Positions 1 through 29,322 of a stretch of 38,246 bases of DNA are shown here, piece by piece; the stretch's first letter is position 1; each line of letters starts with the position of its first letter. The stretch is from a virus. The notes beneath the pieces are model-generated. The model was not told the DNA's origin. It searched no databases and was given only the letters and a program-made list of their open reading frames with translations. The position numbers and the translations under genes were made by a program. Where the stretch lies: the IMG/VR virus record IMGVR_UViG_3300002835_000476, positions 1 through 38,246 of that record, one strand, 5' to 3'.

Positions 1-1984
1 GATATGCAGCAACGGATGCTGTTGTAGTCTGAGATACTGCTGAACTTTGCAGAGGATTAAATTCTCTTAATATTTGAACGGGCGTTACAGCCATGGCATT
101 GAATTGCACAACTGCGCTGGTGCTTGTACTAGCTGCTGTTGTAGATGCAGTCTGTTCGTTATCCATGCTTGTAGATTGAATATTGCGTTGCTGAATGGCC
201 TGAGTCACTACGCTGACAGAACCCTGAGTGGGTCCTAAAGTTACAGAGGCATCTGATCTAGCAGCAGTCAAGTTATTTTCCGTGTGTGTTTCTGTTTGAA
301 TTTGTTGATTCTGACTTCTTGTAACCGCATCAAGAGCTAGACTTTCTGCTTGACGCATGCTAGCTGTTGCAATAGAAGCAGCATTTTGAATTGCACCTTG
401 ACTGGCCTGATTGGCCGTGGCCGCTTCTCGCTGCTGGTTGTTTCTTATGAGGCTAAGTGCTGCATTGGTTGAGTCCTGTGAGTCTAAACGAAGACCCGGT
501 CTTGACGCTCCCGAAGTTGGGCTCATGGCATCACCAACCAAAGCAGTTGATGTTGCAGCAGTAGAGGTTTTGGTGTTAGTAACTGGCAAAGTACTGTTAG
601 GAGTTTCTGTGGTCACAGTGACCGTTGGATTGGTTGTCGTGGCATCTATTATGGTTGTAGTGACAGTGCTTGTAGGCGTTGTACTTATGCTGGCTACTGT
701 TATCGCCAGCTGCGCATCCTGTAGAGCTTTTTGTTCGGCTGCCAATCTTTTGATTTCTGCATTAAAGTTGCTGCAATTAGGACTATACAATGGTTGGCTG
801 AAACATGGGTCAGGTGTCCAAATAGGTCTAGTCCAACCAACCCAACCAAAATGATTCCAAACATCACTAGTCCACCACTGTATTGAACCCATGTCTAGAC
901 TGTTGATGTTTTCAGTGAACAAGTGTCTATTACTATAACTACCACCCGAATTGTTACCAGCAACATACCATTGATTTTGAAACAAGGTGGTATTGTTTTT
1001 ATCGCTAATTCTAAAGTTAATATTGCCACCACCATTAGATCGCCAATCGGTACACCAGAACATGAATGTATTATAACAGGCTCCATAGTTCCACCAATTG
1101 AAGCCATAATCATAGCCATGGAGGATAACACCTCCACCTATGTGAGGCAGAGACTGTGCTATATTATAACTATAATAAAACGCAGGACTTTTAGATCCTT
1201 GTAGTATGTTTTGAAATCCCGGGCAGCTAGGATTGAATGCTGGATTGAGTATACAAGGGTCAACACTATAGTTTAATCTCATATAAGCATCTTTTATCTG
1301 AGGACCATAGCAGTCTGGATTGCAGCCCCAAAATCCAGCATCCATACCTGTTATACTTAGTTTAGCTGAACCCAGTAAATTTATACCTCTAGGACTAGAG
1401 AAAGTATATGTTTCAGCTAATTGTTGCCATGTTGGATTATACGCTGGATTACCATCATTTATATTTTTTAACCCTAATTGGTAAGTAGCTGTATAATCCA
1501 CAGTATTATCAGACTTATATGCAGTAAATGTTGCATGTAGAGTATCTTGAGGACCATTCAGATCACTACAGTCGTTGCCAGCTTCAACTAAATTTTTTAC
1601 ACCGCCTATTTGATTAGCACACTGAAATCTATACTTGAACCCATACATGATGCTAGTAGCAAATACAGCACTTGTATTTTGATAACCAAAGTTTATAGCA
1701 TTTAAGTTTATATTTTGCTCTGTAGTACTAGATGTATAACTAAAAATATAACCATCTGGTGTATAAGAACCAGTCATCCCTGAAGTAGTCCAACCAGTTC
1801 CTGATGTCATTGTAGGATTTTGTATAAGATTCCCGGTTGTGCTATCAATACTATAGCCACTTGGTGTATTAGGTGAAGTCTGAGCATATACTGCACCTAC
1901 TAGCAGGACCAAGGCCAAGAGTATGGCTATGCCAAAACCCTTGGTCCAACGATACTCATAATGCTTATGGTTAAAGTCGTCCAT
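1..1984 (-). CDS. Large exported protein, 3' end outside window (partial)
   Basis: An uninterrupted minus-strand frame of 661 codons starts at 1984 and is still open at the left edge. Its ATG overlaps the stop of the upstream gene (TAATG), so translation is probably coupled. Residues 18-36 form a hydrophobic segment ending VGAVYAQ, which looks like a Sec signal peptide cut after Ala-Tyr-Ala. The next 200 residues are rich in Ser, Thr, Asn and aromatics and look like a beta-sandwich. A motif DPC-x3-P-x3-P-x-C occurs near residue 242 and again near 391, flanking a Trp/Cys-rich region. After about residue 405 there is a charged helical stretch, then Thr/Ser/Gln-rich low complexity. No enzyme motif is visible. 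I infer a surface or fibre-associated protein, possibly sugar-binding. The family is not recognised. Confidence 0.8.
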   Translation of the reverse strand, partial: MDDFNHKHYEYRWTKGFGIAILLALVLLVGAVYAQTSPNTPSGYSIDSTTGNLIQNPTMTSGTGWTTSGMTGSYTPDGYIFSYTSSTTEQNINLNAINFGYQNTSAVFATSIMYGFKYRFQCANQIGGVKNLVEAGNDCSDLNGPQDTLHATFTAYKSDNTVDYTATYQLGLKNINDGNPAYNPTWQQLAETYTFSSPRGINLLGSAKLSITGMDAGFWGCNPDCYGPQIKDAYMRLNYSVDPCILNPAFNPSCPGFQNILQGSKSPAFYYSYNIAQSLPHIGGGVILHGYDYGFNWWNYGACYNTFMFWCTDWRSNGGGNINFRISDKNNTTLFQNQWYVAGNNSGGSYSNRHLFTENINSLDMGSIQWWTSDVWNHFGWVGWTRPIWTPDPCFSQPLYSPNCSNFNAEIKRLAAEQKALQDAQLAITVASISTTPTSTVTTTIIDATTTNPTVTVTTETPNSTLPVTNTKTSTAATSTALVGDAMSPTSGASRPGLRLDSQDSTNAALSLIRNNQQREAATANQASQGAIQNAASIATASMRQAESLALDAVTRSQNQQIQTETHTENNLTAARSDASVTLGPTQGSVSVVTQAIQQRNIQSTSMDNEQTASTTAASTSTSAVVQFNAMAVTPVQILREFNPLQSSAVSQTTTASVAAY

Positions 1985-3435
1985 TATCTAAAAGCGCTGG
2001 CTGAATATTTTACTGGATCCATCTTGGGAACTTCACTTTCGGTTTTATAATCGTATTTGGGAATCTTATGTGGATTGGCTGCCCAAAGTTCGCGAGCACG
2101 TTCGCCAATTTGACCTTCATAGGGGCAAGGTGTACCAGCTGCCATCATGGCTTCAAACACTCTGCGATCCTGGCACATGGTGGCAACAGCAGCAACCTTC
2201 ATGCCCATGTCATATAGGGTTTTGCTCAACTTTAACCGTTCGCAGTTTAAATCACGACCAGTACCACCCAAGGCCATGCCAAACATTTGTGTTTGTATGG
2301 CACCAGATTGACCTGTAGTACACAGATCCTGGCCGCCACCGCTCATCATGGCTGGCGCTATGGCCGTAGGTGGAGGCTGAATGACTCTTTGAGTAATTGT
2401 AGTTTCATTGATATTTCTATTGGTCATGTCACCGGTCTGAATGTTCTGATTAACAGCGGTGCTGGAGTTGATGTTGGTATTTTGATTGTTGGATGCTGAT
2501 ATAGATGTTGAATTGTTGATGTTGCGATTGGTCATGTCACCGGTCTGAATGTTGTTATTTGTATTGGTTGTATTTGCAGTTGTCTGATTGATGTTACGGT
2601 TGGTCATGTCCCCGGTCTGAATGTTGTTATTTGTATTGACAGCCGTACTATTGCTTTGGTTTACATTGTTGTTATTGTAGTTCATGGTACCAGTATTGAT
2701 GTTCTCATTTTTATTCAGACTAGTACTGGTATTGATGTTGTTGTTAGTACTGGTGCTGGTACTGGTATTGATGTTGCGGTTGGTCATGTCACCAGTCTGA
2801 ATGTTGTTGTTGGTGTTTACACTGGTGCTGGTGTTGACGTTATTGTTGTTGTAGGTAACCGAACCACTCATGATGTTGCGATTGGTATTGTCGCTTGTAC
2901 TGGTATTTTGATTGATGTTGGTTATGCTGCCACTTTGAATGTTTTGGTTAACATTGGTGTTGGTATTGTTGCTGGTACTTGTGCTGGCATTGACATTGTT
3001 GTTGTTAAATGTCTGAGTACCGGAATTTATGTTGTTGTTGGTATATGTAACCGAACCACTCATGTTGTTGTTATTGTTGTTGGTTACTGTACCGCTCTGA
3101 ACATTGTTGTTGGTGTTGACATTGGTACTAGTGCTGGTACTAGTATTCACATTGTTATTGTTGTTGGTGCTGGTACTGTTCACCGTTGAGAGATTGGTGT
3201 TGGTACTAGTGCTGGTACTGACATTGTTGGTAGTAACCGAGCTGGTGCTGTTGCTTGTGGAATTAGTATCAACCAGACTTTTGGAATCGTAGGTTCCTTG
3301 GTTGATGAGTGTGGTGTTGTTGGTAGTTGTGCCGTTGGTTGTACTTGTGGTACTAGAATTGGTCGTTTGCGCGTTGGCACCCAAGGTTGTGAACATAACA
3401 AGACATGCGCAGATTGCAGCGATAACTGCACGCAT
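1984..3435 (-). CDS. Exported Asn/Thr-rich repeat protein with conserved C-terminal domain
   Basis: The 483-residue protein begins with a clear signal peptide (hydrophobic core, then LGANAQ), preceded by an AAGGA ribosome-binding site. Residues 25-375 consist almost entirely of Asn, Thr, Ser and Gly, with about ten copies of N-(I/V/M)-x-(S/T)-G-x-x-T and Asn-rich spacers. The alternating polar pattern recalls curli-type amyloid or beta-solenoid proteins. The last 100 residues are a distinct non-repetitive domain with four cysteines (LCTTG, DLNCERLKL, MCQDRRVF, TPCPYEG); I believe related domains occur in other aquatic phages and bacteria, but I know of no function. The gene lies behind a late-type promoter and is coupled to the exported protein downstream. 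A fibre or cell-surface role is inference. Confidence 0.85.
   Translation of the reverse strand: MRAVIAAICACLVMFTTLGANAQTTNSSTTSTTNGTTTNNTTLINQGTYDSKSLVDTNSTSNSTSSVTTNNVSTSTSTNTNLSTVNSTSTNNNNNVNTSTSTSTNVNTNNNVQSGTVTNNNNNNMSGSVTYTNNNINSGTQTFNNNNVNASTSTSNNTNTNVNQNIQSGSITNINQNTSTSDNTNRNIMSGSVTYNNNNVNTSTSVNTNNNIQTGDMTNRNINTSTSTSTNNNINTSTSLNKNENINTGTMNYNNNNVNQSNSTAVNTNNNIQTGDMTNRNINQTTANTTNTNNNIQTGDMTNRNINNSTSISASNNQNTNINSSTAVNQNIQTGDMTNRNINETTITQRVIQPPPTAIAPAMMSGGGQDLCTTGQSGAIQTQMFGMALGGTGRDLNCERLKLSKTLYDMGMKVAAVATMCQDRRVFEAMMAAGTPCPYEGQIGERARELWAANPHKIPKYDYKTESEVPKMDPVKYSASAFR
2395..3250 (-). repeat. Degenerate tandem repeats inside the Asn-rich gene
   Basis: The repeat region encodes about ten G-centred units. 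Four are nearly identical at DNA level over 23 bp (2420-2442, 2528-2550, 2600-2622, 2780-2802) and encode IQTGDMTNRNIN. Successive Gly-to-Gly distances, N- to C-terminal, are 12, 12, 30, 22, 24, 34, 26, 24 and 36 residues, all even, as expected if an in/out beta-strand alternation is kept. Near-identity of some copies suggests recent duplication or conversion. Confidence 0.85.
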
Positions 3436-17801: not shown

Positions 17802-17826
17802 ATCGGTTATATTGAAATGGACCACC

Positions 17827-20025
17827 ATGGAATTTAAGACTTTCATTACCGAAGGCAAGCGCGACACCGTAGTGTTCAGTCATGGTCGCATGAATCCCGT
17901 AACCGTAGGCCATCAGAAAATGGTCGAAGCCGGTCAGAAGCTAGCCCAAAGGCTCAATGCTGACTATGAACTCAGCATCACTCATAGTCACGATCCCAAG
18001 AAAAATCCCCTGAGTGTTGATCAAAAGCTCAAGCATGTCAAACGAGCCTTTCCCAAGGTCAAAGTAACAGCTACCAGCAAAGAAACCCCTAGCTTCTTGC
18101 ATCAGGCCAAGCGTCTGCATCAGCAAGGCTATCAGCATCTGGTCATGGTGGCTGGTTCGGATCGGGTACAGGAATATCACGACACTCTGCACAAGTACAA
18201 TGGACATCCAGACTTTTATAATTTCAAAAGCATCCGTGTGCCCAATGCCAAGGAAATGCACAAGCTGGCTGGAGTAAGTCTAGAGAGAGATCCTGACAGC
18301 GAAGGTGCCGAAGGCATGAGTGCCAGCAAGATGCGAGCTCATGCTGCCAACAATGACTATGCAGAATTCCGCAAAGGCGTACCTGCGCATTTCAGCGATG
18401 CTCAGGCTCGTGAGCTGTACAACGATGTGCGTCAAGGCCAAGTCCGAAAAGAAAGTCGTGATCTCCGTCAGATCTATGTCAACGGAGAAATATATAATCT
18501 AGGCGACCGAGTCAATTGCGGTAAGCAGCTTGCAGAGATAGTATACAGGGGTTCGACCTATGTAACTTTGCAGCTAGAAGACCACACCACGGAGAAATAT
18601 TGGATAGCCGATCTCGAAGAACGATCGGGACAATACTATACCAAAACCGGAAGGTTAAAGCAAAACCCAACAAATCCTAGTGGGCTGTCTAAGAAATATT
18701 CGGGCGAACTATCTCATGCTACGCAGTTAGCTCGTCGCCAACATTTCAAGAAACATGGTGCCAAGGCCAGCTCTGATGCCAGCGCCTATGTACCTGCGCC
18801 TGGCGACACTGAAGCCACCACTAAACTCAGCAAATACACCAAACGCTATCACGAACGATATCGTGTTCGTGAACAACATCTGCCCTGGATACTCATGTCA
18901 GCCGAACAGCGCATGATCATCAAGGAATCCGAACAGCAATTAAGTTTCAATGGCTATACAACGGTCAACCTAGATCTTTGTCCAGGTGCAGTGATCACCC
19001 TCAAACAGGTCATAGACAATCCTGCTCTGAATCCCGAATTTGTCATCAAAGCCATACAGGCTACGGATGCCATGCTGGGTGTAGAACGCGAAGCCATGAA
19101 TCAGGGTTTTGCCACCACAGAACTCATACATGATTTTACCATGTACATGGGCATAGCTCATGATACCCTGCACTTGTTGGGTTTGACCGATGCCGACTTT
19201 GCCACCAAATACGGCAAGAATTGGTTTGAAACGCACATGCGTAAAATGTCAGAGCTGGGCATGCACAACGATGGCATCATGATGCAGCAATATGGAACGC
19301 ATCTGCCCGTAGAGCAAGGAGAGGTTGAAGAAAGCATGAAACCCATAAAAAGCACTCACGCCGTGCAGAGCATTCTTTTGCACCGAACCGATGGCAAAAC
19401 TATCAAACGCCATAACTTAGTCAAGAAACTAGACTTCAAAGACGATACGGAAAACAGCAAAATGGATACAGAAATCAAAGAAGCTGCTGATGCCGCTCTT
19501 AGCAAAAAAGCATCTGAGAGTGGTGTTAGCCTGGGTACCTTGCGTCAGGTCTACAAGCGTGGCGTAGCGGCCTGGCGCACTGGCCACAGACCCGGAACTA
19601 CTCCGCAGCAATGGGGCATGGCCAGAGTCAACAGCTACATCACCAAAGGCAAAACCTATCACACTGCAGACAAAGACCTGCGTGAAGCCGAAGAAGCCCA
19701 GAATTTGCCTGACAATCAAAACATTAAAAAAATGGGTCCCTACAAGCACATGGGCGATCCACAGCGCGATGAACGCGATATTAATTTTAACGATGGCAAA
19801 GACGTTTTTCATGGCATAGACAAAGCCGTGACCGACGAAGTTGGTTTCGATGGCAAGCCCGTAGGATTTGTTAGCTTCAAGAGTTTCATGCACGAGCCTG
19901 AAAACATCAAAACAACTGCTCAACACGATGCTGCACGAGCCAGCATTCATGCAGCTCAGGTTACTGATTTCGCCCAGCACGGTCCAGCCTATAGAGCCCA
20001 AGTCAAAGCACGTAAAATGGAGTAG
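17827..20025 (+). CDS. Cytidylyltransferase-like multidomain virion protein
   Basis: The 732-residue protein opens MEFKTFITEGKRD, then a nucleotidyltransferase fold: VVFSHGRMNPVTVGHQ contains the T-x-G-H nucleotide-binding motif, and EGMSASKMR near 165 matches the (I/M)SxSxxR motif. Around 215-270 is a small beta module (IYVNGEIYNLGDRV ... YVTLQLEDHT). A middle helical part includes LSFNGYTTVNLD. A C-terminal segment RTGHRPGTTPQQWGMARVNS is widespread in T4-like phage structural proteins. The ATG is preferred over a TTG 15 bases upstream. Substrate is unknown (NMN/nicotinate-like or CTP-dependent). The context suggests it is packaged or part of the head core. Confidence 0.8.
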   Translation: MEFKTFITEGKRDTVVFSHGRMNPVTVGHQKMVEAGQKLAQRLNADYELSITHSHDPKKNPLSVDQKLKHVKRAFPKVKVTATSKETPSFLHQAKRLHQQGYQHLVMVAGSDRVQEYHDTLHKYNGHPDFYNFKSIRVPNAKEMHKLAGVSLERDPDSEGAEGMSASKMRAHAANNDYAEFRKGVPAHFSDAQARELYNDVRQGQVRKESRDLRQIYVNGEIYNLGDRVNCGKQLAEIVYRGSTYVTLQLEDHTTEKYWIADLEERSGQYYTKTGRLKQNPTNPSGLSKKYSGELSHATQLARRQHFKKHGAKASSDASAYVPAPGDTEATTKLSKYTKRYHERYRVREQHLPWILMSAEQRMIIKESEQQLSFNGYTTVNLDLCPGAVITLKQVIDNPALNPEFVIKAIQATDAMLGVEREAMNQGFATTELIHDFTMYMGIAHDTLHLLGLTDADFATKYGKNWFETHMRKMSELGMHNDGIMMQQYGTHLPVEQGEVEESMKPIKSTHAVQSILLHRTDGKTIKRHNLVKKLDFKDDTENSKMDTEIKEAADAALSKKASESGVSLGTLRQVYKRGVAAWRTGHRPGTTPQQWGMARVNSYITKGKTYHTADKDLREAEEAQNLPDNQNIKKMGPYKHMGDPQRDERDINFNDGKDVFHGIDKAVTDEVGFDGKPVGFVSFKSFMHEPENIKTTAQHDAARASIHAAQVTDFAQHGPAYRAQVKARKME

Positions 20026-20027
20026 TA

Positions 20028-20462
20028 ATGGAAGAATTAATTCAAGCATTAAGACAAACGTTGGCCAATACCTTTGGCATGTATTTCCAGGCTCATAGCG
20101 GTCACTGGAATGTCGAAGGACCGGACTTTGCTGAGTATCATGATTTCTTGGGCGAGCTCTATGAAGAGTTGCACGGAGCCGTAGATCCCATAGCCGAGTA
20201 CATCAGAATACTAGATGCCTATGCTCCAGGCGACATCAGCGAAATGATGATGTCCACCAGCATTAGTGCCATGGGCGTTAAAAGCAACCCCAGGGACATT
20301 GTTAGCAGCCTAGTGGACAGCAACAACATCTGTCTTTTGACTCTCATGACAGCCTTTAAAGCCAGTGAAGCTGCTGGAGAAGTTGGTTTGTCAGACTTTT
20401 TAACACAACGCATCAATGCACACCAGAAACATGCCTGGCAGATGCGTAGCATGCTAAAATGA
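20028..20462 (+). CDS. dps: Dps-like ferritin
   Basis: The 144-residue protein contains GHWNVEGPDFAEYHDF and AVDPIAEYIR. H26, H38, D53 and E57 have the same spacing (12, 15, 4) as the Dps ferroxidase ligands, so iron oxidation is plausible. Dps proteins form hollow dodecamers that store iron and protect DNA from oxidative damage; the cationic N-terminal tail used by E. coli Dps to bind DNA is absent. The gene sits in the virion operon two bases after the previous stop and overlaps the next gene (ATGA). It may protect DNA in the late-infected cell, or be a virion component. Confidence 0.85.
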   Translation: MEELIQALRQTLANTFGMYFQAHSGHWNVEGPDFAEYHDFLGELYEELHGAVDPIAEYIRILDAYAPGDISEMMMSTSISAMGVKSNPRDIVSSLVDSNNICLLTLMTAFKASEAAGEVGLSDFLTQRINAHQKHAWQMRSMLK

Positions 20463-20947
20463 AAAGCTTCGTAGAAATCATTTGGGAATCAAAATCCCAA
20501 GATGACGTTATTTCGGACACCGATCTCGAACAAATGGCCGAGGCTTTAACCTGGGACGACATTGCGGATCTTTACGATGCCGATGAACTCATCGAAGTCG
20601 ACGAAGCCGAAGAAGACATCAATGAAGCTCTAAGTGCTCAGGCTCGTCTGCGTAAGCGCATGACCTTTGCCAGACACAAGGCCAAGCGGGTGCAATTGCG
20701 TGGCATCAAGCTTCGCAGAGCCAGTGACTTTGCCACTCTCAAGAAACGTGCCACCAATGCTGCACGCAGATCCATAACCAAAAGATTGCTCAGAGGTCGT
20801 GACAAAGCGTCTCTGAGTCCAGCGGAAAAAGATAGAATAGAGCAACAAGTACGTCGCATGAAGAACATACAGAACATTCTGGCTCAGCGAATGATTCCCA
20901 AGATTAAAAAGATTGAGCAGGGTCGTCTGTACAAGAAACGCAAATGA
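20459..20947 (+). CDS. Basic prohead-core-like protein
   Basis: The 162-residue protein starts MKSFVEIIWESKSQ, has an acidic N-terminal third (LIEVDEAEEDINEALS) and a strongly basic helical remainder (ARLRKRMTFARHKAKRV; RARLYKK-type ending). Acidic leader plus basic body, with an I-N-E-A-L site between them, resembles proteins trimmed by the T4-type prohead protease, which cuts after Glu. It is probably a DNA-contacting internal or scaffold protein. It overlaps both neighbours by 4 bases. Confidence 0.65.
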   Translation: MKSFVEIIWESKSQDDVISDTDLEQMAEALTWDDIADLYDADELIEVDEAEEDINEALSAQARLRKRMTFARHKAKRVQLRGIKLRRASDFATLKKRATNAARRSITKRLLRGRDKASLSPAEKDRIEQQVRRMKNIQNILAQRMIPKIKKIEQGRLYKKRK

Positions 20948-21366
20948 AAAAATTCTTTGAACTAAGAAACGAACTCTATGAATCTGCTTGCCCTGTGGCT
21001 ACGCAGCATCTGGACACCAACGTTAAAAATCGCCAGCATGCCATTGATGAATATCTGTACGGCCCAGCCAACCCCAACGAGCCCGGTGATCATTGGAATA
21101 AAATAGCCAAGGTCTGGAGCATCAGTGTAGAAAATGCCAAGACCATGACCTGTGGCAACTGTGCGGCATTTGATATTTCGGACAAGATGCGCAAGTGCAT
21201 AGAAGTGGGCATGCAAGGTAAAGAAAAATCGGCCGATGCTCTGGCCACCGCAGAAAAAGCAGACCTGGGTTACTGCAACATCTTACATTTCAAATGTGCT
21301 GGTACCAGAACCTGTAAGCTATGGTTGACCGACGGTCCCATAGATAATAAAGACCGAACCATGTAA
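20944..21366 (+). CDS. Conserved cysteine-rich phage protein
   Basis: The 140-residue protein starts MKKFFELRNELYESACPVATQ and carries YGPANPNEPGDHWNKIAKVW, TCGNCAAF, KCIEVG and a C-terminal YCNILHFKCAGTRTC. Eight cysteines arranged in pairs suggest metal or iron-sulphur binding. The YGP-NP-EP and CGNCAAF elements recur in many T4-like aquatic phages, in my recollection, without known function. It overlaps the previous gene by four bases and shares one base with the next (TAATG). Confidence 0.75.
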   Translation: MKKFFELRNELYESACPVATQHLDTNVKNRQHAIDEYLYGPANPNEPGDHWNKIAKVWSISVENAKTMTCGNCAAFDISDKMRKCIEVGMQGKEKSADALATAEKADLGYCNILHFKCAGTRTCKLWLTDGPIDNKDRTM

Positions 21367-21974
21367 TGTTCAGCATTGCCAGAATCGATTTTATAACCGA
21401 TCCTGTAATTAACGTAGGCATAGATGATGTTTTTTACAAGGATCCGCAGGCCATGGACTTCTTTGATAAAGATGGCTATGAGCTCACTAGACTCGAACAG
21501 ACCTATTATGCCTGCCAGGGACTAGAAGTAAGTCGTTATACTGCTGGTCATCCCGGAGTATTTCAGCCCTGGATTGCCGTTGATCATGAATATTTGAGCA
21601 TAGATCATAGCTGTGCCATGTATCGCTGCAATTTTGAGGGTATGGCCCTGGCACAGATTCAACGACAGACCAAGAAGTATCCCCGCGTAGGTTGGTTATT
21701 GACCTGCAAGAAGAAATGGGGGCTGGATTTAAACATAGATTATTGTGATGGCAACATAGCACTAGAAGTTATACATCTAGAATGGGATAGTCCTAGTCTA
21801 GAGTACATAGAACAAGAAAGAGTCAAAGCCGAAGAATTAGTTAAGAATACAGATTGGGTGGATGCTGCCAAGCGAGTTTGGTCACTACGAGATGAATGGC
21901 AAAACCTCAAAGGCTGGTATGCGCAGGCTCATTGGAAAGCAACCTATTTTGGATTAGAAAGGCCCTGGTATTAA
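21366..21974 (+). CDS. Conserved hypothetical late protein
   Basis: The 202-residue protein is rich in Trp, Tyr and acidic residues (FYKDPQAMDFFDKDGYELT; GVFQPWIAVDHEYLSIDHSC; LERPWY at the end) and has six cysteines. Composition and lack of motifs suggest a globular soluble protein, but no family is recognised. It abuts the polyprotein-like gene with no gap, so it belongs to the virion operon. Confidence 0.65.
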   Translation: MFSIARIDFITDPVINVGIDDVFYKDPQAMDFFDKDGYELTRLEQTYYACQGLEVSRYTAGHPGVFQPWIAVDHEYLSIDHSCAMYRCNFEGMALAQIQRQTKKYPRVGWLLTCKKKWGLDLNIDYCDGNIALEVIHLEWDSPSLEYIEQERVKAEELVKNTDWVDAAKRVWSLRDEWQNLKGWYAQAHWKATYFGLERPWY

Positions 21975-24134
21975 ATGAAGACATTCAAAGATCTAAGAAC
22001 TGTTCAAGAACAAGCATCACCCATGATCAAACCACCTACGAATGAGTTTGGTAAAAAAGAAGATGCCTTTGCCCATGCCAAGCAACATGGTGGTAAGGTG
22101 TTTAAAAAGACATTTACCCATCCTACTTCTGGTATGAAGAATGTTAGTTATGTTGTTAGAGAAGATGCCGAACAGATTGATGAGCTAAAAAGAACAACAC
22201 TTGCCAATTATGTTAGCAAGGCAGCAGGTAGCTATGGTCGTGACAAACAGAACATAGGCAGAGAAAGCCCAGATGGTACCGTGGCCAAGGCTCGACCAGA
22301 ACTCAAACGCGCAGTAAAGAATCGTCTAACTGGTATCAATCGTGCAGCCGAAAGACTGGCCAAAGAAGAAACCGAAATCGACGAAGCATCCAAGAAACCT
22401 AATGCCACTACTCGTCATCTAAGACAATATCCAGTTAGTGATAAGGACGTGGCTAAACCTGTTAAGCAGTCAGAGTATCAACATCATGTCGTATCAAAGT
22501 TAGATGGTAATGTTTTGGCCTCTTATAAATCACGGGAAGATGCGCATAAAAATGCTCATGGTAATCCAGTTGTTTCCGGTTCTCTAGAAACCATCGGTGA
22601 TCGTAAATATGTTAGAGAGCAAAGTGAGTCTAAACCCGTAACATATTACTCATTAGTACATAAAGCAACTAATAAAGTACTAAGCACACATAAAGATTTA
22701 GAATCTGCTAAAGACGAACATAGGGGCATGGATCAGGGTGAACGAGCACATTACAGAATTGCCACGACAACAAAAGCGCCTAAGTCTTTTAGTATGAAAG
22801 AAGATGCCGAAGGTGTGGCGGAAGACATTTCCTCTACTAAAAAGAAAATATCAAAATACGAAGAACTTGCGTTGGCTGCGAATCGTGCTGGTGATGATGC
22901 AAAAAGCAAACAATATCAACAAAAGATTCAAGTACTTAAACAAAAAATGTCTCAAGGTGTGGCAGAAGAAAATATTCTTGAAGGTGCATACGAAAAATCT
23001 GAAGAAAATAAACGTTCTGCTGATGCTGCTAAGAAGCAAGGTGATATGTTCGCCCATCACCTACACATGGCTGACCATCACGATAATTTAGCTCAATGGC
23101 ATGCTGAGAGAGGTCGTCATAGCGTAGCAGATAGTCATGCAGCCAAGGCTGAAGAACATCAAGAAAAGGCTATGGAACATAAAAAGCAAGGTGTGGCGGA
23201 AGCTGCATTCAAAGATCCTAGTCCTATGATGAAAGACAGCATCAAGCAAGATAGAATTCGCAGTCTAAAAAATCTTATTGCTGTTGCCAAAGTAAAAGGC
23301 GTCCATCATAAAGTCAAAGAATATGAATTAGAATTGAAAAAATTGAAGGAAACGACGGAAGTGACAGAAGCCGGTGCATTTTCCTATGGAGCTAAACCAC
23401 CACGTAAAGGTTCGGTTGCCTACAATGCTCTCATGAAACGCAAAGAGCAGGATAAAAATCGTGTCAAAGAAATCGAAGCCATTGGTACTAAAAATCATCA
23501 TGTAGGTGTAGCCAAAGTCACAAAAGCTGTGGCGGAAGGCTATACCGGTCGTGAAACCAAAGACGGAACCTGGCGTGTGTTCAAGGATGGGCAAGCGGTA
23601 GCAGTGGCGGGACCATTCAAGAGCAGAGATGAAGCACATGCCTGGATTAAAAAACACAAGCAAGGTGTCTCGGAAGCCAAAGATACTGAGATGTACAAGT
23701 ACATAGATCAGTCTGGTGGTCATCAAATAAAAGGAAAATCAGGAACCTATGTAGGTTATACGCATTCTGCCACCAAAGGCAAGGGTGCCAACATTCTAAA
23801 GCATAACACGACAAAAAAGTATTATGCAGCAGGTGGTTCATCCACAGCATTTACTGCAAAAACTACTCTACACGATACACCCCAAGCAGCAGCCAGGGCA
23901 TATCACAAAGGTAACCTAGCCGAACAAGACGAAAAAGAAGCACAAGAGTATGATTACGAAGGCGACATGGCTAGATCCGATCTGCGCAGCATTATATTCA
24001 ATGCACAAGAGGTGCATGACATGCTGGAGCCCAACACCAATTTACCTGAGTGGGTACAGGCCAAGATTACCAAGGCCGAGGACTACATGAGTTCCGTAAG
24101 ATCCTATATGAAGGCCGAAAATGAAGACCTTTAA
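21975..24134 (+). CDS. Modular virion or prohead-core protein with repeated GVAE junctions
   Basis: The 719-residue protein starts MKTFKDLRTVQEQA and is built from short dissimilar modules joined by G-V-A-E or related sites: EGVAEDI near 280, QGVAEEN near 330, QGVAEAA near 408, TEVTEAG near 459, KAVAEGY near 520 and QGVSEAK near 563. These resemble substrate sites of T4-type prohead proteases, which cut after Glu. Modules include a KELKR-type helical stretch, His-rich helices (HHLHMADHHDNLAQWH) and a small beta domain (TWRVFKDGQAVAVAGPF). The C-terminus, DLRSIIFNAQEVHDML...LPEWVQAKITKAEDYM, is conserved in cyanophage-like genomes. Middle modules are AT-rich. Cleavage and head-core function are inferred. 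Confidence 0.7.
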   Translation: MKTFKDLRTVQEQASPMIKPPTNEFGKKEDAFAHAKQHGGKVFKKTFTHPTSGMKNVSYVVREDAEQIDELKRTTLANYVSKAAGSYGRDKQNIGRESPDGTVAKARPELKRAVKNRLTGINRAAERLAKEETEIDEASKKPNATTRHLRQYPVSDKDVAKPVKQSEYQHHVVSKLDGNVLASYKSREDAHKNAHGNPVVSGSLETIGDRKYVREQSESKPVTYYSLVHKATNKVLSTHKDLESAKDEHRGMDQGERAHYRIATTTKAPKSFSMKEDAEGVAEDISSTKKKISKYEELALAANRAGDDAKSKQYQQKIQVLKQKMSQGVAEENILEGAYEKSEENKRSADAAKKQGDMFAHHLHMADHHDNLAQWHAERGRHSVADSHAAKAEEHQEKAMEHKKQGVAEAAFKDPSPMMKDSIKQDRIRSLKNLIAVAKVKGVHHKVKEYELELKKLKETTEVTEAGAFSYGAKPPRKGSVAYNALMKRKEQDKNRVKEIEAIGTKNHHVGVAKVTKAVAEGYTGRETKDGTWRVFKDGQAVAVAGPFKSRDEAHAWIKKHKQGVSEAKDTEMYKYIDQSGGHQIKGKSGTYVGYTHSATKGKGANILKHNTTKKYYAAGGSSTAFTAKTTLHDTPQAAARAYHKGNLAEQDEKEAQEYDYEGDMARSDLRSIIFNAQEVHDMLEPNTNLPEWVQAKITKAEDYMSSVRSYMKAENEDL
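22809..23676 (+). repeat. Dispersed 15-16 bp junction repeats within the modular gene
   Basis: The word CAAGGTGTGGCGGAAG or a near match appears at 22809-22824, 22953-22968, 23187-23202 and 23661-23676, with a shorter form at 23526-23538. Each encodes (Q/E)GV(A/S)E or AVAE at a module boundary. The intervening DNA is unrelated, so the repeats mark junctions rather than a tandem duplication. Confidence 0.85.
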
Positions 24135-24426
24135 AGAACTCAGGGAAGCCACCTACAAGGGCAAGACCGTGCCCTTGAACAAGCCCATGGCTGGTGATAT
24201 TAAAAAACGCAAGGTCTATGTTGATCCAGATGGTGACGGCAAAGCCAAGAAAGTAGAATTTGGTGATACTACGGGGCTGACCATCAAGACATCGGACCCC
24301 AATCGTCGCAGAAATTTCAGAGCGCGTCATAATTGTGACCAGAAGAAGGATAAAACAACAGCAGGATATTGGTCCTGTAAAGCCTGGAGTGCACCTACAG
24401 TCAAACAGGGACTGGGCACTAAATGA
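24121..24426 (+). CDS. Conserved basic late protein
   Basis: The 101-residue protein opens MKTFKELREATYKGKTVPLNKPM and contains KKRKVYVDPDGDGKAKKVEFGD, FRARHNCDQKKD and YWSCKAW. The module VPLNKPM-GD-KK-KVYV ... FRARHNC ... YWSC is, in my recollection, common in aquatic T4-like phages. Its MKTFKELRE leader is shared with neighbouring head-core-like proteins and may be removed by the prohead protease at L-R-E. It overlaps the modular gene by 14 bases and the next by four. Confidence 0.7.
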   Translation: MKTFKELREATYKGKTVPLNKPMAGDIKKRKVYVDPDGDGKAKKVEFGDTTGLTIKTSDPNRRRNFRARHNCDQKKDKTTAGYWSCKAWSAPTVKQGLGTK

Positions 24427-25163
24427 AAACTCTAGCAGAGCTACGGGAAAAATGGTCCAACAAATACAAACGCAGCATAGATTGCAACGACCCTAAGGGC
24501 TTCAGTCAACGTGCGCATTGTCAGGGTAAAAACAAAACCAATGAAGGTGTTAGTACTTCATATAATAAGCCCGATGAGCAAACTGGTGTAATGTCGTACC
24601 ATGATCTAGAAGCTCATATCGGTAAACCAAAGGCTCTTTTGATTGCTAAGCACGAACAATTTCAAAAACATATGTTTCCGCAAATGAGTTTAGGGGCTCA
24701 GGTAGGTTTTAAGTTTGAAAGACGTCATGGTTTTGAACATGTTTATGCTGTTCATGGTCCCAATAAGTACGTTGACAAAGAAAAGCCTGGATACAGAACC
24801 ATGCTTAGATTTCATTTAAGTGGTAGTGGTAAAAAGGTTACTCAGGTTGATCGTTCTGTTAATCACAACAATGAACGACATCATGAAGGTAGTCTAGTTT
24901 GGGATCATCGTGAGACCTGGGAACATCCGGTAAACAAACGTGAGGATAAACAAATAGCTAAGAGAATGGCTGCATCTAAAGCTACTAATGAAAATTTTCA
25001 AGACGGACGTAATCCACAGGATCGGGGTGATAGTGCTAGACACGGCATACCCAAGGGAGCTACCATAGCTCTCCTAAAGAAAATTCGTAGCAGTCCCAAT
25101 TCTAGTCCACGCAAGAAACAGCTTGCGCATTGGCAGATAAATATGCGAAAGGGTCGCACCTAA
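24423..25163 (+). CDS. Modular late protein with inserted AT-rich domain
   Basis: The 246-residue protein begins MKTLAELREKWSNKYKRSID, followed by CNDPKGFSQRAHCQGKNK, and ends DSARHGIPKGATIALLKKI with a basic tail; both ends are typical of T4-like aquatic phages. Between them (about residues 40-195) lies an unrelated domain rich in His and aromatic residues, introduced after T-N-E-G-V. The DNA of that insert uses AT-rich codons unlike the ends. This suggests a swapped-in module comparable to those of the preceding large gene. Function unknown; probably a head-core or internal protein. Confidence 0.65.
   Translation: MKTLAELREKWSNKYKRSIDCNDPKGFSQRAHCQGKNKTNEGVSTSYNKPDEQTGVMSYHDLEAHIGKPKALLIAKHEQFQKHMFPQMSLGAQVGFKFERRHGFEHVYAVHGPNKYVDKEKPGYRTMLRFHLSGSGKKVTQVDRSVNHNNERHHEGSLVWDHRETWEHPVNKREDKQIAKRMAASKATNENFQDGRNPQDRGDSARHGIPKGATIALLKKIRSSPNSSPRKKQLAHWQINMRKGRT
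25136..25143 (+). promoter_or_regulatory. Possible late promoter (GATAAATA)
   Basis: GATAAATA lies in the last codons of the upstream gene, 45 bases before the start at 25189. The position fits a late promoter for the fibre-like genes, but the motif is in coding sequence. Confidence 0.35.
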
Positions 25164-25719: not shown

Positions 25720-26249
25720 TGCCTGATAATTTAACCATTGATGCCTCATCAGCATCCGGAGCCGATACTACCTATCTGGTAAAAGTCGATCCTGGATTGA
25801 CCAGCAATCAGATCAGTATTGCCAATCTTCTGAACAGCACGAGTGGTAATGTCGGATTTACTACTAGCAATATCCATACTTTGGGTAATACAAATCGTAA
25901 ATTTCGCGGCATTTATCTGTCTCAGGAAATCAACGCCAACTCTCTGGTGATTAATGAGACTGCTGGAACCATCAACTTCAAGTCCAATGTATCAGCCAAT
26001 GGTTTTGAAATTGTTAACAGCACAGCGGAACCTGCCCTAAAAAGCTTGTTTGATTTGCGCATATATGCCAATGCCAACAGCAGAGGTGGCGCGGTTGTGG
26101 TTACCAATAGCCCTCTGAGGCTTGCAAGTTTTACTACGACCGATCGCGACAATCACATTATTTCACCAGCCAACGGTGATGTAATTTTAAACATAACCAC
26201 CAATAAAATACAGGTGTTTGCTGATAAAGTTTGGACGGATTTACACTAA
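25719..26249 (+). CDS. Tail-fibre-like structural protein, paralogue B
   Basis: Also 176 residues, it mirrors its upstream neighbour: DTTYLVKVDPGLTSNQISIANLL, LGNTNRKFRGIYLS, GGAVVVTNSPLRLASFTTTDR and NKIQVFADKVWTDLH. The copy has diverged most in the first third. Start and stop overlap neighbours as TAATG, so the two fibre genes and the subtilisin are co-translated. The pair probably arose by duplication and may form a heteromeric fibre. Confidence 0.75.
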   Translation: MPDNLTIDASSASGADTTYLVKVDPGLTSNQISIANLLNSTSGNVGFTTSNIHTLGNTNRKFRGIYLSQEINANSLVINETAGTINFKSNVSANGFEIVNSTAEPALKSLFDLRIYANANSRGGAVVVTNSPLRLASFTTTDRDNHIISPANGDVILNITTNKIQVFADKVWTDLH

Positions 26250-28222
26250 TGAGCACAGCCAACGTAATCTATAATTTCCAAGGACACGAAGATCTTTTCA
26301 GATCAGATCTCTTTGCCCAGATTAATAATCTACCCCCTAATCTGTCTTCTGGTCACTTGTATAATCCTACGTCAGCAGATTTGGTGGATGGCAAACGTGA
26401 ATATATTGTTATTGCGCACGATGGATGCCTAGAATCTCTTGAACAGGATCTAGAACTTGATACTACAGCCAACAACGAAGTTGATGGCAACATTGTACCT
26501 GATAGGCCTGTAGAAGTTGCTAATCGCAGAATCACATCAGATATTCAAACACATTACTGGCTAACCGATCAAGAAGCTGCAAATCTTCAGTCTGATCCTA
26601 GAGTCCGATTTATTCATCCCACCATTGAACATGATACTGGTCTAGCTCTAACCCAGTTTGGTTTGGACTATCAGCCGTATTATTCATTTCAAAGCAGATA
26701 CAATGTAATTCGCCAATCGATAAACTTTCCTGGCGGAGCTCGTAATTGGGCCCTGCACCTATGCGGTAATGGCAATGTTGATTATGGTTCTGGTCTTACT
26801 AGTCCGTCTGATGATCGCACCTATCGTTACATATTGGATGGCGATGGTGTGGATGTGGTCATATCTGACGGTGGTCTTGATCCAGCGCACATGGAATGGT
26901 TGGATCCAACAGGTAGGGTTAGTAGATTCCAACGAGTTAACTGGTATACCCTTGCTGGCATCAGTGGAGCACAGGCTACAGCCCTACAGGCCAACATCAA
27001 CAACGGTACATTTTACCAATCCGATGATGGTGGCCATGGCATGCACGTTGCCAGCATAACTGCAGGCAGAGTGTTTGGTTGGGCCAAACGGGCCAACATC
27101 TACAACATGAAATTTTTTGGCTTTGGCGCCATTGGTGTTGATGAAGGCCTAGATCTCATAAGACTCTGGCACAAAAATAAACCCATAGATCCCAAAACCG
27201 GACAAAAAAGACCCACCATAGTCAATGGAAGTTGGGGGGTATCTAGATTTGTTGCCATACCTAAGCAAAAGGGGTTTGAACATCCAAGTTTTTTCCCGGG
27301 TTCCGGTAATAAAGTTTACAGTGGTGTTGCCGCAGCCAACATTACCTACAGAGGTACTAATATTGGTACAGTCAATGTATTCGATGATGTTGCCAATACT
27401 GGCCTTAACGGAACCACAAGATTAGATAATTTTGATGCGGGCTCAAATTCTTCGGGAGTTCCTATAACAATTAGATTTTTTGGCTTCAATGGACAAGTTG
27501 GCTCTTGGGATACTTCAGCTGAATCAATGATCAAAGAGGGCGTAATCTTTGTACACGCCGCAGGTAACGATCATCATAAACTAGATGTTCCAGGTGGTCC
27601 TGACTATAACAATCAAATTTCAGTTTGGTATACCCCAATATCTTTTCTTCCCCCAATTTTTCAACAATCTTATTATTATCATAGACCAAGTAGCCCTGAC
27701 CTTGGTAACGTCATACACGTGGGCAGTGTTAACAGCATATGTTCCCAAAAACCCAATATTTTAGAAAGCTCACCATTCAGTGCCTGGGGACCAGGAGTAA
27801 CTGTCTGGGCGCCTGGCTCGGCAATTGTAGCTGCTTATTCTGCCAAGTACGGTAATCTGCCGGCTAATGATGATTTTGTCTATAAAAATCCCACGACCGG
27901 AGCATCAGTCGCTGGCAACGCAATGGTAGCCTTGTCTGGTACCAGCATGGCTGCTCCACAGGTAACTGGGTTTTTGGCCCTATATCTGCAAGCCAACCCC
28001 GCAGCCAACCAGTTGGCCTGTTTGCAATGGTTACAAAATGTAGGCAGCAACAGCAACTTACTGTATACAGGCAATGTTGATGATTATGCCAATGCCTACA
28101 TAGTTGGTAATTCTGGTAAATTCATGTATACACCTTGGAAAACAGGCGTTGCTACGCAGTCTACGCAAGACAACATAGAGGGTAGTTTGGTTCTAGAGAA
28201 TTTAACCATCAACACCATCTGA
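26249..28222 (+). CDS. Subtilisin-like serine protease (S8) in the virion cluster
   Basis: The 657-residue protein has the complete subtilase triad: Asp in VVISDGGL (D207), His in GGHGMHVASI (H263), and Ser in GTSMAAPQV (S566), with oxyanion Asn in HAAGND (N440). Residues 1-150 could act as a propeptide. No signal peptide is visible, so it is probably cytoplasmic or virion-bound, not Sec-secreted. It is encoded with fibre-like genes in a late operon, suggesting processing of virion proteins or degradation of host surface proteins during entry. The ATG at 26249 overlaps the previous stop; an upstream TTG is rejected. Base composition is AT-richer than its neighbours. Confidence 0.9.
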   Translation: MSTANVIYNFQGHEDLFRSDLFAQINNLPPNLSSGHLYNPTSADLVDGKREYIVIAHDGCLESLEQDLELDTTANNEVDGNIVPDRPVEVANRRITSDIQTHYWLTDQEAANLQSDPRVRFIHPTIEHDTGLALTQFGLDYQPYYSFQSRYNVIRQSINFPGGARNWALHLCGNGNVDYGSGLTSPSDDRTYRYILDGDGVDVVISDGGLDPAHMEWLDPTGRVSRFQRVNWYTLAGISGAQATALQANINNGTFYQSDDGGHGMHVASITAGRVFGWAKRANIYNMKFFGFGAIGVDEGLDLIRLWHKNKPIDPKTGQKRPTIVNGSWGVSRFVAIPKQKGFEHPSFFPGSGNKVYSGVAAANITYRGTNIGTVNVFDDVANTGLNGTTRLDNFDAGSNSSGVPITIRFFGFNGQVGSWDTSAESMIKEGVIFVHAAGNDHHKLDVPGGPDYNNQISVWYTPISFLPPIFQQSYYYHRPSSPDLGNVIHVGSVNSICSQKPNILESSPFSAWGPGVTVWAPGSAIVAAYSAKYGNLPANDDFVYKNPTTGASVAGNAMVALSGTSMAAPQVTGFLALYLQANPAANQLACLQWLQNVGSNSNLLYTGNVDDYANAYIVGNSGKFMYTPWKTGVATQSTQDNIEGSLVLENLTINTI

Positions 28223-28278: not shown

Positions 28279-29322
28279 ATGTCCAATTTTGTTGCAAAAA
28301 CCAGAGCCCTCATGGAGCAGATGTCTGAGGCTCAGGACAAGCCTGTAGACAAAGCGCATTTTTGTGCTACGCACGTCGAACATCTGCTTTTTGGTCCAGG
28401 GACCTGCATTAGCGAAGCTCATGCCGAGCCCGATGACAATGGACATGTCGCCTGGTACACTGTTCAGTTTACCGATGGTGTGCGTAAAATTGACACCAAG
28501 GATCTAAAGGTTACCGAAGGCAAGAGCCACATGCACAAGAAGCCCATGAAGGAAGCAGAGGTTGCCGAAGCCAACATTAAACATCCCAATCAGCAGAAGC
28601 TCGATGTACATGAGCCCGAAAAGGATGAGCTAACAGCCAAGGACTTCGAAATGTTCCGCAAGGGCAAGAAAGTCGAAAAGACTGTTGACACAGAAAAAGA
28701 AGAACAGAAGATGACCAACGAAGCTCAGACAAGTGCTGCTGCTAGATACACCAAAGCTAAAATGAGTCATCAGGCATCAACCACCATGAAACACATAGCC
28801 AATCCGACAGCAGGCGAAACTAAAGCTGCCAAGGACATCAAGCCTGGCATAGCTGGTTATCGTGACCGTATTGCTATGCTTAAAAGTGCCCAAGCAAGAG
28901 GTGCTTTGAAAGCAGAAGAAGTCGAAACGGAAAATTTCGAATTGATTGATATTACTACAACCTATGAAATGACTGAACATGTTGCTATACCTAAAAATCC
29001 ATCCTTTGAGAATTATTTGGATGCTGTAAGTTTTCTAATTAACAATGACAGCGAAGAAATTCAGAAAGAAATAATTTCATTGGCTCAAGAAGCATTTGCC
29101 AACAAAGAAATTGATGTCCTTATCAAAGCCGAATTGCAGGCCATGAACGAAGCAGGCGCCATCAAGATGCCAACAGCAACAGGCATGCGCGTCATGGGCA
29201 CACGTTACGGAAATAGTGCTGAGGCTGAACGTAATAGTACCAAGAAGTTCATAGACACAATGAAAGGCCCTAGCTCTGCGGCTATGGCTAAATTGGAAAA
29301 ACCAGCCAAAGCCAAGAAATAA
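28279..29322 (+). CDS. Prohead-core-like protein
   Basis: The 347-residue protein begins SNFVAKTRALMEQMSEAQ and contains DKAHFCATHVEHLLFGPGTC, then ISEAHAEPDDNGHVAWYTVQF, a domain I associate with T4-like cyanophage and pelagiphage head-core proteins. The middle is charged and helical, with several Glu sites (KEAEVAEAN) suited to prohead-protease cutting. The C-terminus is Ala/Lys-rich. GAGG precedes the ATG, and two late-type promoters lie upstream, so high late expression is likely. Scaffold or internal-head role is inferred. Confidence 0.7.
   Translation: MSNFVAKTRALMEQMSEAQDKPVDKAHFCATHVEHLLFGPGTCISEAHAEPDDNGHVAWYTVQFTDGVRKIDTKDLKVTEGKSHMHKKPMKEAEVAEANIKHPNQQKLDVHEPEKDELTAKDFEMFRKGKKVEKTVDTEKEEQKMTNEAQTSAAARYTKAKMSHQASTTMKHIANPTAGETKAAKDIKPGIAGYRDRIAMLKSAQARGALKAEEVETENFELIDITTTYEMTEHVAIPKNPSFENYLDAVSFLINNDSEEIQKEIISLAQEAFANKEIDVLIKAELQAMNEAGAIKMPTATGMRVMGTRYGNSAEAERNSTKKFIDTMKGPSSAAMAKLEKPAKAKK

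Follow-up and report, generated by a model that had tools for sequence, protein, structure and literature searches.

The 38,246-base window analysed here carries a modular gene (21975..24134, + strand; 719 aa) that we interpret, with a probability of about 0.7, as encoding a combinatorial head-cargo polyprotein, i.e. a protein that is targeted to the prohead, cut after x-E motifs, and reassorted by recombination at a shared DNA word. The leader of the 719-aa protein, which is like the T4 capsid-targeting sequence, would recruit the protein to the core of the prohead, where a gp21-type prohead protease would cut after [V/I/L/M]-x-E and free the modules as small proteins; these would stay in the head and would probably be delivered into the host with the DNA. 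Many cut sites in this phage group would be spelled by one near-fixed DNA word, and word-to-word recombination in co-infecting phages would gain, lose and swap modules. Because the modules end in the same word and in the same phase, the reading frame would survive such recombination, and in-frame module swapping thus resembles the shuffling of equal-phase exons. We infer that cleavage takes place in the prohead, that the products reach the host, and by which route modules are exchanged; for the latter, UvsX-type homologous recombination would be simplest and a dedicated enzyme is also conceivable.

The T4 internal head proteins are an example of anti-restriction and takeover proteins that phages deliver along with their DNA, and how such arsenals of delivered proteins assemble and diversify is little understood. 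In the present case, the sequence itself reveals the parts list, the joint and, probably, the release mechanism, in the form of a dual-use exchange and cut site, which suggests that aquatic T4-like bacterial viruses mix and match sets of small head-carried proteins. If this is true, a text search for the word would find candidate delivered phage proteins, and the system would be a bacterial-virus counterpart to exon shuffling, without introns. A broader formulation, in which a 16-21 bp word serves across diverse large phages both as in-frame recombination site and as protease site, and in which pooled host-acting peptides are reassorted, can be put forward as tentative; recognition of the word by a dedicated nuclease or recombinase is a possibility.

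Source phage and genome window

The window is a fragment of an uncultured-virus genome and contains genes for a family-B DNA polymerase, UvsX, a DnaB-like helicase, ThyX and ribonucleotide reductase. The DNA polymerase is approximately 50% identical to the polymerases of T4-like Synechococcus phages, and the phage is therefore a T4-like myovirus and a relative of cyanophages. No genes for gp21, gp23 or other head proteins were seen within the 38-kb fragment.

Properties of the modular gene

The gene comprises a leader and about 11 modules that recur in relatives, all features being on the + strand. The leader, MKTFKDLRTVQE (21975..22010; 12 residues, T4-like capsid-targeting type), has a putative cut site after VQE and is followed by modules m1-m4 (22011..22823), whose borders VRE, IDE and VRE do not carry the DNA word; word 1 (GGTGTGGCGGAAG, GVAE; 22810..22825, core 22812-22824) forms the end of m4. 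Module m5 (22824..22967), found with 97-98% nucleotide identity and unrelated flanks in loci L142 and L145, ends in word 2 (GGTGTGGCAGAAG, GVAE; 22954..22969, core 22956-22968), and m6 (22968..23201), which about 16 ORFs contain either by itself or in other combinations, ends in word 3 (GGTGTGGCGGAAG, GVAE; 23188..23203, core 23190-23202). Modules m7 and m8 (23202..23537) are separated by a border EVTE/A without the DNA word, and m8 occurs again in L138, L142 and L143. Word 4 (GCTGTGGCGGAAG, AVAE; 23524..23539, core 23526-23538) leads into m9 (23538..23675; 96-97% nucleotide identity in L142 and L145), which shows a weak, below-cutoff similarity to DUF4170, and word 5 (GGTGTCTCGGAAG, GVSE; 23662..23677, core 23664-23676) leads into m10 (23676..23924), which ends in NLAE and is followed by m1 in L128-L133. 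The last module, m11 (23925..24131), is the commonest module of the gene; its border with m10 is an LAE site without the DNA word.

All five words share one frame. Matches of at least 11 of 13 positions numbered five in the ORF, compared with a mean of 0.05 and a maximum of 2 in 500 codon shuffles, and the modules between the words are mutually unrelated; the initial observation of near-identical words parting unrelated modules is thus confirmed. The gene is also modular, as the preliminary description had it, with more modules than were seen there: about 11, several of them parted by [V/I/L/M]-x-E sites (IDE, VRE, VTE, LAE) without the DNA word. Other GVAE-type junctions were not found in the window, where a few further matches with three mismatches encode different residues. 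Little weight can be given to the suggestion that AT-rich module DNA supports exchange, with a G+C content of 42.2% for the ORF, 44.7% for the window, and 35% to 52% for individual modules. A PHROG search with the whole gene gave no match and the DUF4170 match is below cutoff; a known family for the whole gene was rejected on these grounds.

The junction word

In a scan of IMG/VR, the exact 16-mer CAAGGTGTGGCGGAAG was found in at least 120 viral stretches on contigs of 4 to 525 kb; among the matches listed, all copies are open in the same frame, read QGVAE, and lie, with few exceptions, in long ORFs. The full form of the word is (AG)CAAGGTGTGGCGGAAG(GCT), read as (Q)GVAE. Of the near-copies in word-bearing genes (up to two mismatches, dereplicated), 460 of 464 are in frame 0 (GVAE), and the four off-frame copies all have two mismatches and are about at chance level; the word has no stop codon in any of the six frames. 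The conserved stretch covers approximately 21 bp, AGCAAGGTGTGGCGGAAGGCT, and outside of it there is zero information (281 sites); the residues that follow the word are mostly G, A, E and D. Words are present in 17 of 20 large phage records, mainly clustered on one strand. Bacterial and archaeal genomes totalling 257 Gb contained seven matches to the 19-mer, which is near chance, and the word as a host or bacterial signal was rejected for this reason. The GVAE DNA word was not found in eight cultured cyanophage genomes with related module families.

The word is conserved at the DNA level. Codon usage predicts 0.8 occurrences of GGTGTGGCGGAA at 170 non-seed GVAE sites, of which 108 have this sequence. 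As these loci had been chosen by the word, the test was repeated with 80 word-independent loci picked solely by protein similarity to one module, and GGTGTGGCGGAA was found at 59 of 92 GVAE sites (0.74 expected from codon usage). The first set held six locus pairs with an orthologous junction and both flanks, and its synonymous test was replaced by a word-blind test on alignments of 70-90% identity; here, identity at wobble positions is 88-89% inside the word, compared with 50-59% in codons for G, V and A outside it. Recent spread alone is insufficient to account for the conservation. The reason for fixing the word at the DNA level is the weakest link of the explanation; the word might be needed as shared homology, be homogenised by the exchange itself, or be the target of a nuclease.

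The idea that the word is inserted into structural genes such as the tail sheath was rejected: in L053 there is only a chance match within two mismatches, and the exact word in L100 is apparently fortuitous, its protein being unrelated. RPE-like palindromic repeat elements have a conserved repeat body of at least about 100 bp, and the conservation here extends over approximately 21 bp. No intein/Hint family is among the Pfam families listed for 59 multi-word ORFs.

Junctions as predicted protease sites

The variation of the word follows a protease-like rule. In a set of 175 variant words, 20 of the 27 changes at P1 are silent and keep E, 28 of the 30 amino-acid changes at P3 replace V by M, L or I, and P2 and P4 are free to vary. 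At junctions without the word, placed at the ends of local similarity, [V/I/L/M]-x-E was found in 310 of 705 cases (99.5 expected) and, in a word-blind set, in 704 of 2249 (296.5 expected); no such enrichment was seen at these junctions when E at P1 was replaced by D, K or Q. A depletion of [V/I/L/M]-x-E inside modules was not significant, and cutting would hence need to depend on exposure. The T4 protease gp21 cleaves after L/I-x-E (PMC9026906); the junction motif is close to this motif, but the dominant P3 residue of the word is V, which is outside the stated T4 consensus L/I. A gp21-family protease (PF03420) was found in 12 of 20 related phage records, exactly the 12 that have gp23, and the gp23 propeptide region in related phages ends in LLAE, LLSE or HLAE, the predicted cleavage sites. 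The P1/P3 rule, the x-E junctions, the leaders, the co-occurrence of gp21 in 12 of 20 records, and the homologues in virions (see below) support the proposal of the preliminary description that the words may be prohead-protease sites.

It can be argued that the word is mainly a DNA element, i.e. the target of a phage nuclease or of a site-specific recombinase that moves cassettes, with GVAE being incidental and the protein uncut. The strong synonymous conservation, the sharp 21-bp motif and the lack of the word in cellular genomes beyond chance fit this explanation. We consider it improbable, however, as the substitutions in the word obey protein rules (E at P1 and a hydrophobic residue at P3 are kept, P2 and P4 are free), as word-less junctions retain [V/I/L/M]-x-E, as the frame is invariant despite the lack of stops in six frames, and as no dedicated enzyme was identified.

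A subtilase-family protease (PF00082) is encoded at 26231-28222 of the window, a short distance 3' of the modular genes, and might instead be the enzyme that acts at the x-E sites, although cutting after E is unusual for subtilases.

Leaders, virion proteins and module content

T4-like leaders are found in 35 of 91 word-bearing ORFs (38%), compared with 119 of 946 other ORFs (13%; p 4e-9); since the 'other' ORFs include many genes of the same phages that have a leader but no exact word, this contrast probably understates the difference. In T4, the leader directs proteins to the head, and the first ten residues of IPIII are enough for packaging (PMC9026906). Synechococcus phages S-WAM2 and S-H9-1 encode a 179-aa protein with the leader MKTFKQLREE and a homologue of m11 at its end. 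Furthermore, gp160 of the cultured cyanophage S-CREM2 consists of modules homologous to modules of word-bearing genes, parted by x-E sites. Both gp160 and gp154 were found in S-CREM2 virions by mass spectrometry, which shows presence in virions rather than a position in the head, and the authors consider incomplete separation from virions possible for such proteins (PMC10665884).

The Pfam scan covered 59 multi-word ORFs. Families found in modules comprise GNAT acetyltransferases, dCMP deaminase, nucleotidyltransferase and several DUFs, and one module matched a SutA-type RNA-polymerase-binding domain; most modules are without a known function. In word-bearing ORFs of L002, L099 and L101, several modules start, as judged by eye, in an ADP-ribosyltransferase-like manner (YLYHATSASGL, YLWHGSRQKI and VLYHATYKQRL), recalling T4 Alt.

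A structure model (AlphaFold2) was restricted to residues 523-719, since a whole-ORF MAFFT alignment misplaced module fragments. It shows three separate folds (mean pLDDT 73.8), with m9 as its own domain and with pLDDT below 50 at residues 563-571 (QGVSE, word 5) and 650-660 (after LAE/Q); no match was found when this model was compared with solved structures. The position of words in low-confidence linkers, together with the presence of enzymes such as GNAT acetyltransferases and deaminases among the modules, would fit flexible inter-domain linkers of uncut multidomain enzymes, as in the polyvalent proteins of phages and conjugative elements. The latter are alike in combining many unrelated small domains with a proposed co-delivery with DNA, and cassette recombination is suspected for them (PMC5512222). 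This explanation appears quite unlikely: linkers need neither E at P1, nor V/I/L/M at P3, nor a fixed DNA word, and none of the polyvalent domains (MPTase, ART, ArdC and others) is among the Pfam families listed for the 59 multi-word ORFs. The fixed DNA word at junctions sets the word-bearing genes apart from polyvalent proteins, as does the mode of release, for which a prohead protease is proposed here and an embedded peptidase in polyvalent proteins.

The codons GTG and GCG are rare in word-bearing genes (approximately 19% of Val codons and 7-10% of Ala codons, respectively) and are placed between domains, where they might slow translation for module folding in the course of ordinary domain shuffling. 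Such a role is very improbable as an explanation of the word, for the common codons GGT, CAA and GAA are equally fixed and the conservation extends past the rare codons.

Exchange of modules

The same modules occur next to different partners from phage to phage, and the breaks coincide with the word. For 203 of 978 internal alignment ends, both aligned sequences have a word at a distance of 10 nt or less; for a random position in a single sequence, the rate is 4.7%. In L142 and L145, a single word (word 2) links m5 to m9, both with 96-98% nucleotide identity to the window and with unrelated modules on both outer sides. In L132 and L134, m4 is joined directly to m9 at word 1, and in L128-L133, m10 and m1 meet at an LAE site that lacks the word; m1-m4 are recombined in L128-L134. 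Module order among relatives, the comparison proposed in the preliminary description, is hence not constant (m4-m9, m5-m9 and m10-m1 joins), and the word is conserved. The new neighbours, the breakpoints at the word and the synonymous conservation support its view of the words as exchange sites, for which we infer the route of homologous recombination.

That these joins are metagenome assembly chimeras at short repeats, as might be thought from the fact that every word-bearing sequence found is a metagenomic contig, can practically be dismissed: the identical 719-aa protein was found in three other contigs from other samples and another architecture is repeated in five contigs, which makes misassembly unlikely, cultured cyanophages mix modules likewise at x-E junctions, and the word is, to our knowledge, shorter than the familiar word lengths of assembly.

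In L034, L053, L080 and L099, the ORF stops at most 15 residues after a word, which looks like the loss of a final module. In the word-bearing phages of L217 and L220, inspection by eye points to possible homing endonuclease genes of the GIY-YIG or HNH type beside the capsid gene gp23; these are candidates for driving exchange.

Comparison with known systems

The T4 internal head proteins IPI-IPIII and Alt share with the word-bearing genes a leader MKxx(x)[F/L/I]xxE and a hydrophobic-x-E cut motif (PMC9026906). Both are small variable head proteins (proposed for the word-bearing genes), and relatives of the word-bearing phages encode gp21 and gp23. The T4 internal proteins are single-module genes, whereas the word-bearing genes fuse many modules with a putative cut site between each, and in these, unlike in the T4 internal proteins, the site is a fixed DNA word where modules exchange. 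Module shuffling at a dual-use word is thus the new element with respect to T4-type internal head proteins. In the giant phage SPN3US, the prohead protease gp245 matures ejected proteins that are carried in the head; the abstracts of these publications mention neither a DNA word nor module reassortment for such ejection proteins (PMC5694885, PMC10052503).

Cyanophage proteins of the T4-GC 119 type (S-SM1 SSM1_115, P-SSM2_123) and S-CREM2 gp160 have module families and x-E junctions in common with the word-bearing genes; the T4-GC 119-type proteins are annotated as hypothetical, and eight such genomes are without the GVAE DNA word. Unrelated segments are also swapped at a short shared sequence in integron cassettes and at phage boundary (linker) sequences. 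In contrast to these, the exchange units of the word-bearing genes are inside one reading frame and the site encodes a protease-like motif; further, unlike integron cassettes, the word sites have no attC-like dyad and no stop codons. The open-licence literature yielded no published description of phage internal proteins whose modules are shuffled at a fixed word.

Neighbouring genes

Six genes within 17812 to 25163 begin with similar leaders, i.e. MEFKTFITE, MKSFVEIIWE, MKKFFELRNE, MKTFKDLRTVQE, MKTFKELRE and MKTLAELRE. The last belongs to a second modular gene (24423..25163, + strand), which consists of a WSNKYK...TNE module, an inserted module and an NFQDGRNP module; the outer modules occur separately, and in different partnerships, among relatives. 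For this next-but-one gene, the same kind of insertion had been noted after TNEGV; the three-part modular structure was found, but the insert begins after one TNE, instead of a GVAE word, and extends to a second TNE. The gene with the leader MEFKTFITE (17812..20025, + strand) encodes a nucleotidyltransferase with a DUF5824 domain and is a neighbouring cargo candidate; like S-CREM2 gp154, a cytidylyltransferase and virion protein (PMC10665884), it is leader-bearing. A Ferritin/Dps-like protein (PF00210) is encoded at 20028-20462, inside the cargo gene cluster, and a gene at 28279-29322 with EVAEANIK and several x-E sites is probably modular. Elsewhere in the window, a gene at 1984-3435 (- strand) encodes a 483-aa protein without a Pfam match and with a long N/T/S-repeat region (VNTSTSTNTN...); within this gene, a 36-bp tandem repeat is located at 2509-2626.
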